The notes under the pieces were generated by a model. It saw only the letters and a list, made by a program, of their open reading frames with translations, did not search any database and had not been told where the DNA came from. 33,950 bases of DNA from Patescibacteria group bacterium. Its GTDB lineage: Bacteria > Patescibacteriota > Saccharimonadia > UBA4664. Position numbers and translations under genes: made by a program. This document shows positions 4,908-11,541 of the stretch, piece by piece (position 1 is the stretch's first letter; each line of letters starts with the position of its first letter). The stretch is taken from NCBI GenBank assembly GCA_028288925.1, contig JAQGHG010000009.1:1-33950 (forward strand), in the 5' to 3' direction.

Positions 4908-5972
4908 ATGTCATTAATAATCCGGATGCGCAAAAGTTGGAATAAGCTAGCGGCTGTAGCTATTATGCTTGGCAGTTTGCTGACGCCCGCTTTGGCAATG
5001 GGCGCTAGCTCGCGCGATAGCGACGCCAACTCCATCATTTGGGGCGGCTGCTACACGAAGAGTGAGTGCCTCCAAAATATTAATAATGGTGATGGTCACC
5101 ACAGTTCGGCCAATCTCAAGCAGATTTATTACCACGAAGGCCGCGGTATTACTGAGGCGAACTTTAACTCTAGCTCAACGAAAGACGGCAGTGTTACTAA
5201 GGACGGCAGAGTTATTGTCGGCGGTAAGACCGTGGCGACCGGCGCGCAAAGCACTGGGCGTGACTTTATGGCTGGTTCGCACAAAGACGGCAGCGTATAT
5301 GAGCGGCCAACCTCGGTGAGCTTCCGCTCGGATTCTATCCCGGCGTTCGTGAACATGGAGGGCGGCGTGTTCCATTATGCGGTTATTAAGTCGTGTGGTA
5401 ATACGGTACGGGCGAAGGTGGTTTCTCAGCCCACCCCCAAGCCGACGCCTACTCCCAAGCCTACCCCAACCCCCACGCCGACCCCTACCCCCAAACCTAC
5501 GCCGACCCCTGGCTCCTTCAGCTGTATCGAGCTGATTCCGTCGCAGCCCGATAAGATTAACCATCCTAACAGGTTCCGTTTTACGGTATCGCCCAATGTT
5601 TCGGGCAATGTGAAGCTGACCGGCTTCCGTTTCAGCTTTAGCGACAACGCAGCGGTGAGTGACACGGCGGCGAGCCTGCCATATACCGACCGTGATGTTG
5701 CTTCTGGCAGCTTGACGGTGCACGGTCAGGTCAAGACGACCGCCGGCGTCACGGCTATCAGCGATGCTTGTAGTGCTACCGTGAACGTTAACCAGCCGAG
5801 TCCTACGCCGACGCCGGCTTCTACCGGCCACGTGCTGGGCGTGAGCCTGCCGGCGACGGGTCCCGAAGCGGCTTTGGGCGGCATTGCCGGCCTGTCGGCC
5901 ATCGGTGTGGCTTCGCGCTACTACCTGCGGTCGCGCAAGTCGCTGCTGGACGCTCTGCGGCGCAAGCGCTAG
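4908..5972 (+). CDS. secreted cell-wall-anchored protein with Pro-Thr stalk and LPATG sortase signal
   Basis: This 354-residue protein has a signal peptide (basic start, hydrophobic residues ~14-28, ALA cleavage site near 30). A Cys-containing domain (C48, C54, C163) is followed by a Pro-Thr/Pro-Lys stalk at residues 175-201. A second, Ig-like or beta-rich domain covers ~205-295. A short second PTP spacer leads to LPATG at 314-318, a hydrophobic stretch and an RRKR tail. This is the full layout of a sortase substrate attached to peptidoglycan. No sortase gene is in the window. It has its own promoter and terminator and is a single-gene unit. A role in surface contact is inference; the domains themselves are not recognised. 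Confidence 0.82.
   Translation: MSLIIRMRKSWNKLAAVAIMLGSLLTPALAMGASSRDSDANSIIWGGCYTKSECLQNINNGDGHHSSANLKQIYYHEGRGITEANFNSSSTKDGSVTKDGRVIVGGKTVATGAQSTGRDFMAGSHKDGSVYERPTSVSFRSDSIPAFVNMEGGVFHYAVIKSCGNTVRAKVVSQPTPKPTPTPKPTPTPTPTPTPKPTPTPGSFSCIELIPSQPDKINHPNRFRFTVSPNVSGNVKLTGFRFSFSDNAAVSDTAASLPYTDRDVASGSLTVHGQVKTTAGVTAISDACSATVNVNQPSPTPTPASTGHVLGVSLPATGPEAALGGIAGLSAIGVASRYYLRSRKSLLDALRRKR
5430..5510 (+). repeat. C-rich PTP/PKP coding repeat
   Basis: Degenerate repeats of CCNACNCCNAAG/ACN encode the Pro-Thr-Pro-Lys stalk of the surface protein. Length variation between strains would be expected here because the tract is low-complexity. Confidence 0.8.
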
Positions 5973-6077: not shown

Positions 6078-6217
6078 ATGGGGGTCTACCTTTTTCGAAC
6101 TAGCTGCGGAAGTATGTTCCCGCCTGGCTCACGAACGCTATCCCCCTGCTAATTTCTGCGCGTGACAGGACCGGCGCTCGCTAAGGCGGGAATATGCTTC
6201 CTTCGCTCTACCCGCAT
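6078..6217 (+). ncRNA. structured element A (dcw-associated), upstream of mraZ promoter
   Basis: The 140-nt element folds as nested stems. An outer pairing joins 6078-6085 with 6210-6217 (one mismatch). AGC (6102-6104) pairs with GCT (6205-6207), followed by a 3x3 internal loop. A 17-bp stem joins 6108-6124 with 6185-6201; its only imperfections are G-U pairs. The 60-nt apical part contains CGAACGCTATCC (6132-6143) and ACCGGC (6170-6175). Both are identical in a second copy at 10297-10423, where the upper stem has different bases but still pairs. It lies between a terminator and the mraZ promoter. It could be an independent RNA, a DNA hairpin or a dispersed repeat. The strand of any RNA is not certain. 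Confidence 0.5.
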
Positions 6218-6255
6218 GGGTAAAACACGCCTAGAAACTGTGGATAATAAAACAC

Positions 6256-6285
6256 TAGACAGTGGGTAAGTGTGGGTATTATACT
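6256..6285 (+). promoter_or_regulatory. mraZ operon promoter
   Basis: The -35 box is TAGACA (6256-6261), the spacer is 18 bp, and the -10 is TATACT (6280-6285). The predicted start is near 6292. Two GTGGG boxes lie inside the spacer and two lie just downstream of the start, so MraZ binding would cover the promoter. Confidence 0.6.
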
Positions 6286-6307
6286 GGCTTCAGTGGGTTG
6301 CAGTGGG
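6262..6307 (+). promoter_or_regulatory. MraZ operator: four GTGGG repeats
   Basis: GTGGG(T) occurs at 6262, 6272, 6293 and 6303. Each pair has a 10-bp period and the two pairs are 21 bp apart, so the repeats face the same side of the helix. MraZ in other bacteria binds direct TGGGN repeats separated by 5 nt upstream of its own gene, and this site matches that rule. A degenerate fifth box (GTGGA) is at 6240. Autoregulation of the dcw operon is therefore likely. Confidence 0.85.
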
Positions 6308-6334
6308 TAGCAAACCACAGTAGAGATTACAAAT

Positions 6335-6691
6335 ATGGACTTCTTTGAACGAAAACTTGACGATAAGAACCGGCTTACGATTCCCGCGGAGCTGCGTCAC
6401 GAATTCGAGGGAGGCCAGGTAATCATTACTCGAGGTTTTGCTAACTACCTGCACTTGTACACTGACAAAGTTTGGAACGAAGAGATGGAACCGGCACTCA
6501 AGGGTGATATACTTGACGAGCGCACGGCCGACCTCAACGTTCAATTCCGAATGGGTAAATCGGCCAGTGCAATGGATGCCAAGCAAGGCCGGATTACCAT
6601 AGAACAGCATCTCCTCGATTACGCTGGTATTGGCAAAGAGGTGGTGGCCGTGAGAGCCGGGAACTACTGGCGCCTGACGGCAAAATCTTAA
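6335..6691 (+). CDS. mraZ: transcriptional regulator MraZ
   Basis: MraZ is the ring-forming regulator at the head of dcw operons. The protein has two SpoVT/AbrB-like half-domains. Each carries the DxxxR-type DNA-binding signature: DDKNRLTIPAELR near residue 10 and DAKQGRITIEQ near residue 80. At 118 residues it is shorter than the usual ~140-150, mostly through loss of the C-terminal tail. The start ATG follows the four-box operator. There is no convincing ribosome site, so initiation may be SD-independent. Confidence 0.92.
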   Translation: MDFFERKLDDKNRLTIPAELRHEFEGGQVIITRGFANYLHLYTDKVWNEEMEPALKGDILDERTADLNVQFRMGKSASAMDAKQGRITIEQHLLDYAGIGKEVVAVRAGNYWRLTAKS

Positions 6692-6962
6692 CTTAGTTTT
6701 CATTCCAAAACGAAAAGCACTTTCAAAACCAAAAACAAACATTTTAAAGGCAACTATTTGGCAGTCAGCGAAACGGCCCATAGGCTACCGTTAACAGCCT
6801 CGAACCTAAATCTCGTAAAACTCCACCTCACAACACTCTTTTTAGGAATTATCAACTCGATAATTCCTTACCACACAAAACTCCATTTTTCGCCCTGAAC
6901 CGGCGAAACAAAAACAAAAATGTGCAAACAAAAAGCTGGCTGCTGAATAGGTGACCTTGAAA
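6692..6962 (+). other. 271-bp mraZ-rsmH spacer, A/C-rich, with palindrome
   Basis: No gene of normal length is present. The coding strand is strikingly poor in G, with stretches such as AAACAAAAACAAAAATG. A perfect 10-bp inverted repeat lies at 6844-6853/6859-6868 (AGGAATTATC-AACTC-GATAATTCCT) without a T-run, so it looks like an operator or RNA hairpin rather than a terminator. An 8-codon ORF (6920-6946, ending TGCTGA) sits 16 bp before rsmH; its significance is unknown. Confidence 0.55.
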
Positions 6963-7895
6963 ATGAATATGACTTCGCAACACCAACCAGTATTAATCAC
7001 CCAAGTTATTGAAATGCTCCAACCCCAGAAGGGGGAGGCGTATCTCGACGCTACGGCTGGTTATGGCGGTCACGCCGCGGCGATTCTGCAAAGGATCGGC
7101 GACGACGGGCGAACCATACTGGTAGACCGCGACGCGCGCGCCACACAGGCGCTCGGCGAGCGGTTTGGAGACCGGGTAGAGATCATACACAGGAGCTTTC
7201 TGGAAGCGGCTGAACAGCTGCTCGAGGACGGAACACTGGTAGATATGATCCTGCTAGATCTGGGAGTCTCGTCACCACAACTTGACAATACAGAGCGAGG
7301 ATTCAGCTTTCGGACCGATGTGCCGCTAGATATGCGGATGGATCAATCCCAGTCTATGACGGCGGCCGAGGTAGTAAACCATACGTCCGTTCGCGAATTA
7401 GAGCGAATCATCCGGGAGTATGGCGAAGAGCCACGGGCACGGGCAGTCGCGCAAGCGATTGTAGCGGCCCGGCCTATCGCCACCACCGGTAGCTTGGCCA
7501 AAGTAGTGCGAAAATCAGCACTGCAGACCAAGGATATCGATGCGGCTACCCGGACGTTTCAGGCCATTCGGATCGAAGTGAATGCCGAGCTAGAACAGCT
7601 CAAGGACGCGCTACCGATACTAACAAAACTTTTAGTACCGGGCGGCCGGATGGCTGTCATTAGCTTTCATTCCCTCGAAGACCGTATCGTTAAGCAGTTC
7701 TTTGACCGTGAATCGCGTGATTGCATTTGCCCACCAAAACAGCCAATATGTACCTGTGGGCATGTAGCTTCCTTGCGGAAGCTGACCAGTAAGCCGATCA
7801 TGGCGACCACTGATGAATTAGTTATCAACCCGCGAGCCAGGAGTGCGAAGCTCCGCGCCGCCGAAAAAATAAACAAAAACAAAAGGAGGGACTAA
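6963..7895 (+). CDS. rsmH: 16S rRNA (cytosine(1402)-N(4))-methyltransferase RsmH
   Basis: RsmH methylates the exocyclic N4 of C1402 in the 16S rRNA decoding centre. From the chosen ATG it has 310 residues, the normal size. Characteristic parts are HQPVLITQVIEML, the SAM motif DATAGYGGHAAAIL, LLDLGVSSPQLD, ERGFSFRTDVPLDMRMDQ and the late VISFHSLEDRIVKQFF. The frame is open from a GTG at 6951. The ATG at 6963 has AGGTGA 8 bp upstream, while the GTG would lie inside that site, so 6963 is preferred. The A-rich 3' end also forms the leader of the next micro-ORF. It is the second gene of the dcw block. Confidence 0.94.
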   Translation: MNMTSQHQPVLITQVIEMLQPQKGEAYLDATAGYGGHAAAILQRIGDDGRTILVDRDARATQALGERFGDRVEIIHRSFLEAAEQLLEDGTLVDMILLDLGVSSPQLDNTERGFSFRTDVPLDMRMDQSQSMTAAEVVNHTSVRELERIIREYGEEPRARAVAQAIVAARPIATTGSLAKVVRKSALQTKDIDAATRTFQAIRIEVNAELEQLKDALPILTKLLVPGGRMAVISFHSLEDRIVKQFFDRESRDCICPPKQPICTCGHVASLRKLTSKPIMATTDELVINPRARSAKLRAAEKINKNKRRD

Positions 7896-7896
7896 A

Positions 7897-7968
7897 ATGT
7901 CCATCAAGGTAAAAAACCTATCCAAAGGCCGCAAGGCAATCGCGATTCGCGTAAACGTGAAGCGCTAA
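7897..7968 (+). CDS. 23-residue basic micro-ORF between rsmH and ftsL
   Basis: The ORF starts one base after the rsmH stop. The near-perfect ribosome site AAGGAGGG lies 6 bp upstream, within the last rsmH codons. The peptide begins MSIKVKNLSKGRK and has nine Lys/Arg and no acidic residue. It alternates with short hydrophobic runs and ends VNVKR. No family is recognised. The strong, well-spaced ribosome site, which is better than those of its neighbours, argues for translation. It could be a functional small protein (RNA, ribosome or membrane binding) or a translated leader coupled to ftsL. It is followed by a large inverted repeat. Confidence 0.55.
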   Translation: MSIKVKNLSKGRKAIAIRVNVKR

Positions 7969-7983
7969 CTGTTCCTCGTCCCC

Positions 7984-8022
7984 GGGCAGCGTGTCCCACA
8001 AAAAAACCGGGCCACGCTGCCC
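7984..8022 (+). other. 10-bp perfect inverted repeat between the micro-ORF and ftsL
   Basis: GGGCAGCGTG (7984-7993) pairs perfectly with CACGCTGCCC (8013-8022) around a 19-nt loop containing seven A residues. No T-run follows; instead the sequence is A-rich up to the ftsL ribosome site. It may be an mRNA processing or attenuation structure that sets ftsL expression relative to rsmH. Confidence 0.55.
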
Positions 8023-8072
8023 ACCAAAAAAATTCTAAAAAACACAAAAACAAAACAAGGGAGGTATGCGCC

Positions 8073-8393
8073 ATGTCTACCGCTACTCTTACGGCGCGCC
8101 GTAATCAAAATCTATATCGTCAACCGACTAAATTACAGCTCGGGCCAACTTCGGCGACGTTTGTAGTAATCGCACTTATTAGCGTGCTCGCGCTGTTATA
8201 TTTGAATCAAATTACGAAAACCGGCACATTTGGCTACAAGGTGACGGATCTGACAGGTAAGCGCAACCAGGTGCTGGCCGAGAAGCAAGAACTGGGTGTA
8301 GAAGCGGCTCGTTTGCAGTCGATCGCCGCGACCAAAGCTTCGGCGACGGTGGCCCGCATGGTCCCGACCGGCCAAGTCTCATACGCAAAATAG
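8073..8393 (+). CDS. ftsL: FtsL/DivIC-like cell division protein
   Basis: This 106-residue bitopic protein has a short basic cytoplasmic N-terminus, one membrane segment (TFVVIALISVLALLYLNQI, ~29-48) and a coiled-coil-like outside part (LTGKRNQVLAEKQELGVEAARLQ). This is the FtsL/DivIC layout, and it lies in the standard ftsL place between rsmH and the division transpeptidase. FtsL sequences diverge widely, so the call rests on topology and position. The ribosome site AAGGGAGG is 8 bp before the ATG. FtsL would pair with the FtsQ-like protein encoded downstream and activate FtsWI. Confidence 0.75.
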   Translation: MSTATLTARRNQNLYRQPTKLQLGPTSATFVVIALISVLALLYLNQITKTGTFGYKVTDLTGKRNQVLAEKQELGVEAARLQSIAATKASATVARMVPTGQVSYAK

Positions 8394-8405
8394 GAGCTAA
8401 GACGG

Positions 8406-8531
8406 ATGCACATACCATCATTGGTGCTGAGTTTTTCCTTTACGCTCCGGCCTTGCGAGATTTGGCTGCATTCGAGCGTTTTGCCTTGGGCTTTGGCCTG
8501 GGGGAGTACAATGCGGGAATGGGTAGGATAG
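8406..8531 (+). CDS. possible 41-residue Trp-rich ORF between ftsL and ftsI
   Basis: The ORF has AGGAG at 8392-8396, overlapping the ftsL stop, 9 bp before the ATG. The peptide is hydrophobic with four tryptophans (EIWLHSSVLPWALAW). No family is recognised. It ends 7 bp before the ftsI start. It may be chance; a weak TACAAT box at 8507-8512 inside it could instead belong to an ftsI promoter. Confidence 0.25.
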   Translation: MHIPSLVLSFSFTLRPCEIWLHSSVLPWALAWGSTMREWVG

Positions 8532-8538
8532 GAATGGC

Positions 8539-10290
8539 GTGATACGACCAAGCGATACCATATTACAACGACGGCGGCTAAGGTACTTCACGGTACTCTT
8601 GGTGGTTTTTGGTATGGCACTGGTGGCCCGATTATTTTACTTGCAGGTAGTGAGGCACGAAGCGTATTTGGCGCAGGCCTCCAACGAACACACACGTAAG
8701 TACGAGGTTCCGGCGCGGCGCGGGGAATTGTACGTGCGCGACGGTGACGGTACCTCGCCGGTGGCTTTGAATCAGACGCTTAAACTGCTGTATGCGGACC
8801 CGCGCTATGTGGGCGACAAAGCCGAGGCGGCCCGGCGGCTGGCGGCGGTGACGGGTGGTTCGGCGGCTAGTTATCAGAAACGGCTGGAGCAGGGTATCGA
8901 GTACGCCGTGTTGGCCGAGCGGATACCTTCGGATGTGGCGGACAGAGTGAAAGCGCTGAATCTGGCCGGCATTGGCCTGGCCGACCGCGATTACCGGACG
9001 TATCCAGAAGGTCAGCTGGCGGCCCAGGTGCTGGGCTTTGTGAACGCCGACGGTCTAGGCCAATATGGCGTGGAGGGGTATCTCAATGACCAGCTGTCCG
9101 GGAAGGCTGGAAGGCTGGCGGCCAAGACCGACACCCACGGCATTCCGATTGCTACAGCCAGCAATGTGGTGGCGCCGCCGGTGGATGGGGTCAATTATTT
9201 GCTGACGATCGACCGCAATATCCAGGCGATGGCGGAGATGGAGCTTAAGGACCAGATCGACAAAGTAAAAGCCAAATCAGGCAGCATTGTGGTGTTGGAC
9301 CCGTCGACCGGAGCGGTGCGGGCGATGGCGAATTACCCAACGTATGATCCTAATCAATACGGGAACGTGAATGACTACAACGTATTCGTGAATCAAGCGG
9401 TTACGAGTCAGTTTGAGCCCGGTTCGGGTATGAAGGCGTTTACCATGGCGGCGGGGTTGGATCAGGGCAAGGTGAAGCCGGGCACTACGTACGACGACCC
9501 GGGCTCCATCAAGGTGGCGGATAAGGTAATTAATAATGCCCAGGGCGACAAGCCGGGTAAAAATAAGACGATGACCATGGTGCTGCGCGATTCGCTGAAC
9601 ACCGGCGTGGTGTTTGTGCTGAGAATGCTGGGAGGAGATCCGGACAAGATTACTTCGAACGGCAAGAAGATATTGTACGATTATTTCACTAAGCACTTTG
9701 GTTTTGGGCTTCGCACGGGGATCGAGCAGGCCGGCGAGGCGGCTGGTTCGGTGCCCCCGCCCAATACTAACGATGTGTCGTATGCCAATATGACCTTCGG
9801 CCAGGGTATGAGTGTGACGATGATCCAGATGGCGGCGGCGATGGCGGCGATCGCCAACGGCGGCAAGCTGTACCAACCGCACTTGGTGGAGGCGGCGATG
9901 AAGCTCGACGGCAGCTTGCAGCCGGTGGCGCCGAAGTTGGTGAGCGACCACGTAATGAGCCCGGCGGCGGTGGCCGACCTGAACCAGATGCTTCAGGTGG
10001 TGGTGCAACACGGCTCAGGTTATATCGCCGGGGGTATGAACCCGGGCTACAAGATCGCCGGCAAGACGGGTACGGCGCAGATTCCGCGGCCGGATGGCCA
10101 GGGCTATATCGACGGGGCGAATATCGGCTCATTCGTGGGGTTCGCGCCGGCCGATAACCCTAAGTTTGTGGTGATCGTGCGCATTAATGAGCCGGGCGTA
10201 AACGGCTATGCCGAGACGACGACGGTGCCGGTGTTTGGCGATGTATGCCGGTGGTTGTTTAAATATTATGGGATACCGCCGAGCTCATGA
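8539..10290 (+). CDS. ftsI: division-type class B penicillin-binding protein (FtsI/PBP transpeptidase)
   Basis: This monofunctional DD-transpeptidase cross-links septal peptidoglycan together with FtsW. It has 583 residues, one N-terminal membrane anchor (~15-36), a PBP dimerisation region with RRGELYVRDG (~60-70), and the transpeptidase domain. The active motifs are SGMK (S296-K299, usually STFK), SLN (352-354, usually SSN) and KTGT (509-512). All catalytic residues are kept although the surrounding positions differ. No PASTA domain follows. The GTG start at 8539 is chosen because the membrane anchor needs it and AGGA sites lie 5-10 bp upstream. Element B begins 7 bp after the stop. Confidence 0.9.
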   Translation: MIRPSDTILQRRRLRYFTVLLVVFGMALVARLFYLQVVRHEAYLAQASNEHTRKYEVPARRGELYVRDGDGTSPVALNQTLKLLYADPRYVGDKAEAARRLAAVTGGSAASYQKRLEQGIEYAVLAERIPSDVADRVKALNLAGIGLADRDYRTYPEGQLAAQVLGFVNADGLGQYGVEGYLNDQLSGKAGRLAAKTDTHGIPIATASNVVAPPVDGVNYLLTIDRNIQAMAEMELKDQIDKVKAKSGSIVVLDPSTGAVRAMANYPTYDPNQYGNVNDYNVFVNQAVTSQFEPGSGMKAFTMAAGLDQGKVKPGTTYDDPGSIKVADKVINNAQGDKPGKNKTMTMVLRDSLNTGVVFVLRMLGGDPDKITSNGKKILYDYFTKHFGFGLRTGIEQAGEAAGSVPPPNTNDVSYANMTFGQGMSVTMIQMAAAMAAIANGGKLYQPHLVEAAMKLDGSLQPVAPKLVSDHVMSPAAVADLNQMLQVVVQHGSGYIAGGMNPGYKIAGKTGTAQIPRPDGQGYIDGANIGSFVGFAPADNPKFVVIVRINEPGVNGYAETTTVPVFGDVCRWLFKYYGIPPSS

Positions 10291-10296
10291 TGCATA

Positions 10297-10423
10297 ACGG
10301 GTTCTGGCAGCTGCGGAATATTCCTTCTCTGGCCGGCGAACGCTATCCTTCTCTTTTCATGTATCCGGTATCAGAACCTGCACCGGCTTTATCGAGAAGG
10401 TATATTCCTGTGCTGCCACCCGT
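10297..10423 (+). ncRNA. structured element B (dcw-associated), between ftsI and mraY
   Basis: This is the second copy of the element at 6078-6217. The pairings are ACGGG/CCCGT (10297-10301/10419-10423), TGGCAGC/GCTGCCA (10305-10311/10412-10418), a 3x3 internal loop (TGC/TGT), a 15-bp stem with one U-U mismatch (10315-10329/10394-10408), and GCCGG/CCGGC (10332-10336/10383-10387). The apical CGAACGCTATCC (10337-10348) and ACCGGC (10382-10387) match element A exactly. The distal upper stem is CCTTCTC/GAGAAGG here and CCCGCC/GGCGGG in A, so both sides changed together. It may be a 3' element of the ftsI transcript or an independent RNA. Confidence 0.55.
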
Positions 10424-10479: not shown

Positions 10480-11541
10480 ATGACATTTCTACCAACTATC
10501 AACTTTATTCACGCCCAAGAGATTACCTCGCTGTCGCGCATCGGGATCTTGGCGTTTGGCGCGTTTTTGCTCTCGATGGTATTGGTGCCGTATTACACCA
10601 AGCTAGGCTTTAAATACAAGCTGTGGAAGCAACCCAGCGCCGACGCGATAACCGGCGAGAAAGCGCCGATTTATACCAAGCTGCACGCGGCTAAGCATAA
10701 GCGCAATATCCCAACGATGGGCGGCGTGGTGTTCATCGTGGCGGTCGCGGTGATCACGTTGCTGTTTAATTTGTCGCGCAGCCAGACGTATCTGCCGCTG
10801 TTTGTCTTGATAGCCGCGGGTATTGTGGGGATGTTCGACGACTATCTGAACGTGCGGGCTACGGGGCTAGGCTTGGGCGTGGCGGGGATGCGGGCCAAGA
10901 TTAAGTTTTCGTTGATTTTGGGCATCGCGGTGATGGGCGCGTTGTACTTCTCGCTCAAGCTGGGCTACAACCTCATCCATGTGCCGGCGGTGGGCGATTT
11001 TAGCATTGGCTGGCTGTATATACCGCTGTTTATCGCGGTGGTGGTGTCTACGGCCAATGCCGTGAACATCACCGACGGCATGGACGGGTTGTCCGGCGGG
11101 CTTTTGGCGACGGCTTTCGGGGTGTACGCGGTGATCGCGTATTTCCAGGGCAACTTTGGTATCGCGGGCTTTTGCGCCACGATCGTGGGGGCATTTTTGA
11201 CCTACACTTGGTTTAGTATTTATCCGGCGCGGTTCTTTATGGGCGATAGCGGGTCGTTCGCGTTTGGGACGACGCTGGGCGTGATCGCGATGCTGACCAA
11301 TACGGTCTTTGTGCTGCCGATCATCGCGGCGGTGTTCGTGGTAGAAGGCGGTTCGAGCGCGCTGCAGATTCTCTCGAAGAAGATCTTTCATCGCAAGATT
11401 TTCCTATCGGCGCCGCTGCACCACCACCTGGAAGCCATCGGCTGGCCCGAGACCAAGGTAACGATGCGGCTATGGGTGATAGGCCAGGTGGTGGGAGCGC
11501 TGGGACTGGTGCTGGCGCTGCTAGGGAACAAGGTTACATGA
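10480..11541 (+). CDS. mraY: phospho-N-acetylmuramoyl-pentapeptide-transferase
   Basis: MraY transfers phospho-MurNAc-pentapeptide from UDP to undecaprenyl phosphate, making lipid I at the inner face of the membrane. The 353-residue polytopic protein has the family signatures IPTMGGV, the Asp pair GMFDDYLN, NAVNITDGMDGLSGG, FMGDSGSFAFG and the PLHHHLEAIGW loop, with about ten membrane segments. It lies directly upstream of ftsW, whereas murF and murE, its usual upstream neighbours, are missing. Initiation appears nearly leaderless. Confidence 0.95.
   Translation: MTFLPTINFIHAQEITSLSRIGILAFGAFLLSMVLVPYYTKLGFKYKLWKQPSADAITGEKAPIYTKLHAAKHKRNIPTMGGVVFIVAVAVITLLFNLSRSQTYLPLFVLIAAGIVGMFDDYLNVRATGLGLGVAGMRAKIKFSLILGIAVMGALYFSLKLGYNLIHVPAVGDFSIGWLYIPLFIAVVVSTANAVNITDGMDGLSGGLLATAFGVYAVIAYFQGNFGIAGFCATIVGAFLTYTWFSIYPARFFMGDSGSFAFGTTLGVIAMLTNTVFVLPIIAAVFVVEGGSSALQILSKKIFHRKIFLSAPLHHHLEAIGWPETKVTMRLWVIGQVVGALGLVLALLGNKVT

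Follow-up and report, generated by a model that had tools for sequence, protein, structure and literature searches.

Hairpins upstream of mraZ and mraY as very probable copies of a lineage-restricted, dispersed REP/RPE-like palindromic DNA repeat

Among the described systems that resemble the elements reported here, the Rickettsia palindromic elements (RPEs) are dispersed palindromes of 100-150 bp that insert in frame into the ORFs of functional proteins. GTAG REPs carry a GTAG tag, form dimers and also occur inside genes for UvrABC, UvrD and DNA ligase (PMC3733652). Here we describe two hairpins, copy A upstream of mraZ and copy B upstream of mraY, in a 33,950-nucleotide stretch of a Patescibacteria genome (the window). 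A and B are very probably copies of a lineage-restricted, dispersed and non-autonomous palindromic DNA repeat of the REP/RPE kind, about 111-127 nt in length, and the repeat is probably mobile. Its link to mraZ and mraY, and any effect on the expression of either gene, is incidental.

A and B are homologous hairpins: their base is constant, their upper stem of 15-18 bp differs in sequence yet stays paired, and their apex is conserved. Folding bore out the shape originally proposed for both: an AGC/GCT base helix, a 3x3 internal loop, an upper stem and an apical part of about 60 nt. Watson-Crick pairs occupy 16/18 positions of the upper stem in A (6108-6125 with 6184-6201) and 14/15 in B (10315-10329 with 10394-10408), and each fold (z -3.65 for A, -4.26 for B) beats 200/200 dinucleotide shuffles. 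While the extent predicted for B, 10297-10423, stands, the start of A had been placed at 6078 and so took in unrelated sequence; the homologous unit spans 6102-6215 in A and 10309-10423 in B, or from 10297 if the ACGGGT end is counted. The features are as follows.

6102-6215, plus strand: copy A, class-2-like palindromic element upstream of mraZ, 114 nt (match to covariance model R1, 81.2 bits, E 2.7e-19 in the window)
6102-6104, plus strand: 5' side of the A base helix, AGC, paired with GCT at 6205-6207 (sequence and fold)
6108-6125, plus strand: variable upper stem of A, 5' arm (inverted repeat I1, 89% complementary)
6126-6183, plus strand: conserved apical domain of A, with CGAACGCTATCC (alignment of copies)
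6184-6201, plus strand: variable upper stem of A, 3' arm (inverted repeat I1)
6208-6211, minus strand: GTAG tag of A (CTAC on the plus strand), directly adjoining the base helix (tag count across copies)
6335-6691, plus strand: mraZ, neighbour outside element A (NCBIfam TIGR00242, score below its cut-off)
10297-10423, plus strand: copy B, class 1 element upstream of mraY (R1 match at 10309-10423, 101.4 bits, E 1.4e-24)
10297-10302 and 10418-10423, plus strand: terminal ends of B, ACGGGT and ACCCGT (sharp ends common to class 1)
10315-10329, plus strand: variable upper stem of B, 5' arm (fold)
10330-10393, plus strand: conserved apical domain of B (alignment of copies)
10394-10408, plus strand: variable upper stem of B, 3' arm (fold)
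10480-11541, plus strand: mraY, neighbour outside element B (NCBIfam TIGR00445, score above its cut-off)

A coding role for B, considered for a GERYPSL frame that it has in common with another copy (L004), was rejected, as the frame is broken in other copies. Elsewhere in the window, GTGGGT repeats at 6260-6320, before mraZ, are kept in relatives and look like MraZ-binding repeats, and the region 4908-5972 ends in LPATGPE, then a hydrophobic stretch and RRKR, resembling a sortase-type sorting signal.

The resemblance between A and B is not due to chance, since the genome contains five instances of the 12-mer CGAACGCTATCC and none of the reversed pattern, and since R1, built from seven copies (five from this genome and two from a relative), yields, at E below 1e-4, about 30 copies in this genome, some 25 of them beyond its seed. 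R1 also finds copies in the relatives G005, G006 and G003. A second covariance model gives, at E up to 0.05, 33 matches in this 1.2-Mb genome, 20 in G005, 9 in G006 and 2 in G003, while the other seven genomes from the order have no match. Under stricter filters, a class-wide model search of 393 genomes returned matches only in this genome, G003, G005 and G006 and none in the 389 others, and the repeat is restricted to one family-level lineage among the genomes examined. The exact core pattern had two matches in all GTDB r220 contigs, both without the fold and set aside as chance, and none in viral contigs; single-pattern matches in other genomes of the class lacked the hairpin and were likewise dismissed. 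A literature search with limited terms, which is no proof of absence, found no account of such repeats in Patescibacteria or Saccharibacteria.

The copies include subfamilies of near-identical members. Those of class 1, B included, have in common the sharp ends ACGGGT...ACCCGT, inverted over 6-7 nt, while class 2 copies have a different stem that is common within their class; the inverted ends are absent from class 2 and from most single copies. Four tail-to-tail dimers of a class 2 and a class 1 unit, with spacers of 21-27 nt, are present in this genome, and others occur in G005 and G006. Read on the other strand, GTAG lies beside the base helix in 23/50 non-class-1 matches against a background of 3.5%, GTGG does so in 16/16 class 1 matches, and 18 matches have neither; by this tally, most copies end in GTAG/GTGG rather than CGTC. 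At one locus (L036, G000:C19:94440-94553), ACGGGTGACAGGACCCGT downstream looks as if a class 1 partner had lost its hairpin.

Where the copies lie does not fit the original prediction of a functional RNA tied to the promoters of cell-wall genes, since nearly all of the roughly 33 dispersed copies are beside unrelated genes. Many intergenic copies begin a few to about 50 nt 3' of a stop codon, with genes called by a simple longest-ORF rule. Other copies lie in frame within unrelated essential genes, namely ligA (this genome), pcrA (this genome, G005 and G006), lepA (this genome and G005), and uvrC and rplV (G005), mostly on the strand opposite to the one transcribed at A and B; in this usual frame, the element's minus strand encodes a hydrophilic peptide around GSDTGSxEExDSVR. 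The pcrA copy of G006 occupies the same site in reverse orientation. In addition, orthologous sites without the element are found: ligA has no insert in G001, G003, G005 and G006 (RINKLTPGATTELFADTK at the site), nor does lepA in G002, G004 and G006. Upstream of mraY in G001, G005 and G006, the stop codon leads straight to a promoter-like stretch whose sequence is kept, B being absent, and A is missing before mraZ in G001, G004 and G006. G005 has its own hairpin copy upstream of mraZ with an unrelated stem (G005:C93:416440). In the G004 spacer upstream of mraY (L069), another hairpin, GGAGTGCT/AGCACTCC, may be a copy that has decayed or may be of a different nature. The pcrA gene of this genome (L023, G000:C19, around 100353-100464) holds, besides the palindromic insert, one that looks intein-like by eye, located just before SIYSWRGANFQ and ending in ...VHNYIASELVVHN.

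Some sites are occupied in several genomes. In this genome, G005 and G006, nrdJ, the gene for a B12-dependent ribonucleotide reductase, has a copy 20-37 nt behind it (L020, L051 and L049), the stems differing, and the pcrA and lepA sites are occupied in more than one genus, again with unrelated stems. Such shared sites (the nrdJ 3' end and pcrA, in three genomes each) could mean that a function is retained and count against the repeat reading. Apical similarity does not separate vertical inheritance from re-insertion at these sites. The same pattern was described for RPEs in a study of R. japonica, which left open whether it reflects hotspots or deep divergence (PMC3767692). The sole strong copy in G003 (L050) is directly before an nrdB-like gene.

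The upper stem is mostly 13-17 bp long in an element of 111-127 nt, and the 66 matches fall into 52 clusters of stem sequence, many with 13-17 perfect pairs. Both features that had been taken for marks of a functional RNA hold across the copies: changes on both sides of a pair fill 519 cells of the structure, against 163 in shuffles and 56-105 with a slid partner, and the apical part carries 0.94 bits per column, against 0.26-0.34 in the stem. Taken alone, covariation and a conserved apex would suggest RNA. However, an RNA made from one strand should favour G.T mismatches, and the stems contain 19 G.T and 21 A.C, compared with 13 and 0 in a tRNA control from the same genome. The test lumps together copies that lie in either orientation to transcription, which could blur the signal, and the subsets are too small to be split. 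Since the mismatches are strand-symmetric, stem pairing appears to be maintained at the DNA level and not in one RNA strand.

It is therefore improbable that the copies are a cis-acting structured regulatory RNA, be it a leader or a 3' element, with A and B as its representatives at cell-wall genes. The strength of the covariation, the conserved apical domain, the many copies that come after a stop codon and share the sense of the gene before it, and the several sites common to different genera would suit such an RNA, but unrelated ORFs contain copies in frame, most of them on the other strand, one of these copies is inverted at the same pcrA site, A and B are missing from orthologous sites, and stem mismatches show no G.U excess. 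The absence of a described RNA family holds as predicted, no Rfam family matching at gathering score in the window. Dispersed copies, lineage restriction, empty sites at mraY, mraZ, ligA and lepA, and in-frame insertions argue instead for a REP/RPE-like repeat, as do sharp ends, dimers, the GTAG/GTGG tag, strand-symmetric mismatches and a variable stem next to a conserved apex. A dispersed repeat or DNA hairpin, which the original prediction kept as an alternative, is backed by the evidence. Short inverted ends occur in one subclass. Neither target duplications nor a transposition event were seen among the copies compared, which counts against the repeat reading.

How such a repeat moves can be framed in several ways. 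The REP/RPE-like repeat may spread by way of an intermediate, either a single-stranded hairpin or a cruciform, of which the base and the apical domain are recognised, while the stem arms drift and stay complementary by arm-to-arm copying (template switching), by a need for the DNA hairpin, or by both. Template switching between inverted-repeat arms keeps arms complementary and can even invert the loop (PMC8794818, PMC8604942), and we infer that it may act in these hairpins. A RAYT enzyme as mobiliser was rejected for lack of linkage to the copies: the genome has two Y1 (RAYT-like) genes with no copy nearer than 11.9 kb, G005 has none despite its 20 copies, and G004 has three despite having no copy. 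The distance of at least 11.9 kb and the lack of a Y1 gene in G005 count against the repeat reading itself. Short palindromes, AGGAGCCTCCT, upstream of a Y1 transposase gene (L065, 1975-2036) are unrelated to the element. There is a small chance that the copies are a hairpin-DNA mobile element of undescribed type, of which a putative enzyme would recognise base and apex and whose arms would be re-made by arm-to-arm copying at or after each move, so that almost all old copies have fully paired stems of their own; its in-frame copies would add conserved acidic loops (GSDTGSxEExDSVR) to DNA-repair and translation proteins. The 6-7 nt inverted ends ACGGGT/ACCCGT of class 1 and its recent near-identical copies recall a MITE-like element that derives from a classical insertion sequence and is moved by the transposase of that sequence acting in trans, but we hold this for highly improbable, as the ends are very short and missing from class 2 and from the majority of single copies, a parental element was not found and target duplication was not shown. 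Integron attC sites keep their structure while the stem sequence varies. The hairpins have this in common with them, but the notion of a similar folded-strand recombination site is very remote, given that there are no cassette arrays, that copies are single or dimeric and in frame in core genes, and that B has no match in phage or plasmid records.

The repeat reading places RPE-like, gene-invading palindromes in a small-genome lineage for which none is named in the literature searched, and the same kinds of gene are struck as in known systems (DNA ligase, PcrA/UvrD and UvrC). It also cautions that strong stem covariation with conserved loops can arise from a DNA repeat, which is more easily told from RNA when G.T and A.C mismatches are counted, and the many unique, fully paired stems within one genome make arm-to-arm copying testable there.

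Compared with known systems, the repeat resembles Rfam cis-regulatory RNAs in its conserved loop and covarying stem, but differs in matching no family, in strand-symmetric mismatches, in-frame ORF copies and orthologous sites without the element. Like MITEs, class 1 copies are small non-coding repeats with inverted ends, although these measure 6-7 nt, whereas MITEs are recognised by ends of 15-30 bp and a target duplication, and no parental insertion sequence was found. Features in common with GTAG REPs and BIMEs are a GTAG/GTGG tag beside a hairpin, dimers in opposite orientation, often of two different units, a position 3' of genes, and intragenic copies in genes of the UvrABC, UvrD and DNA ligase type. 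However, the repeat is longer (about 111-127 nt with a stem of mostly 13-17 bp, against 20-40 bp and 6-13 bp), has a complex 60-nt apical domain, and lacks the tag or has it degenerate in many copies; nor is a RAYT gene flanked by repeats seen, the two Y1 genes here having no adjacent copies. With RPEs and the Wolbachia palindromic elements the comparison is one of behaviour and not of sequence. The repeat shares with RPEs the dispersed palindromes of that size and the in-frame insertion into ORFs of functional proteins, here ligA, pcrA, lepA, uvrC and rplV with empty orthologues. It differs from RPEs in that its host lineage lies outside the class searched for them, and in that its apical domain is constant while the stem is individual to almost every old copy.
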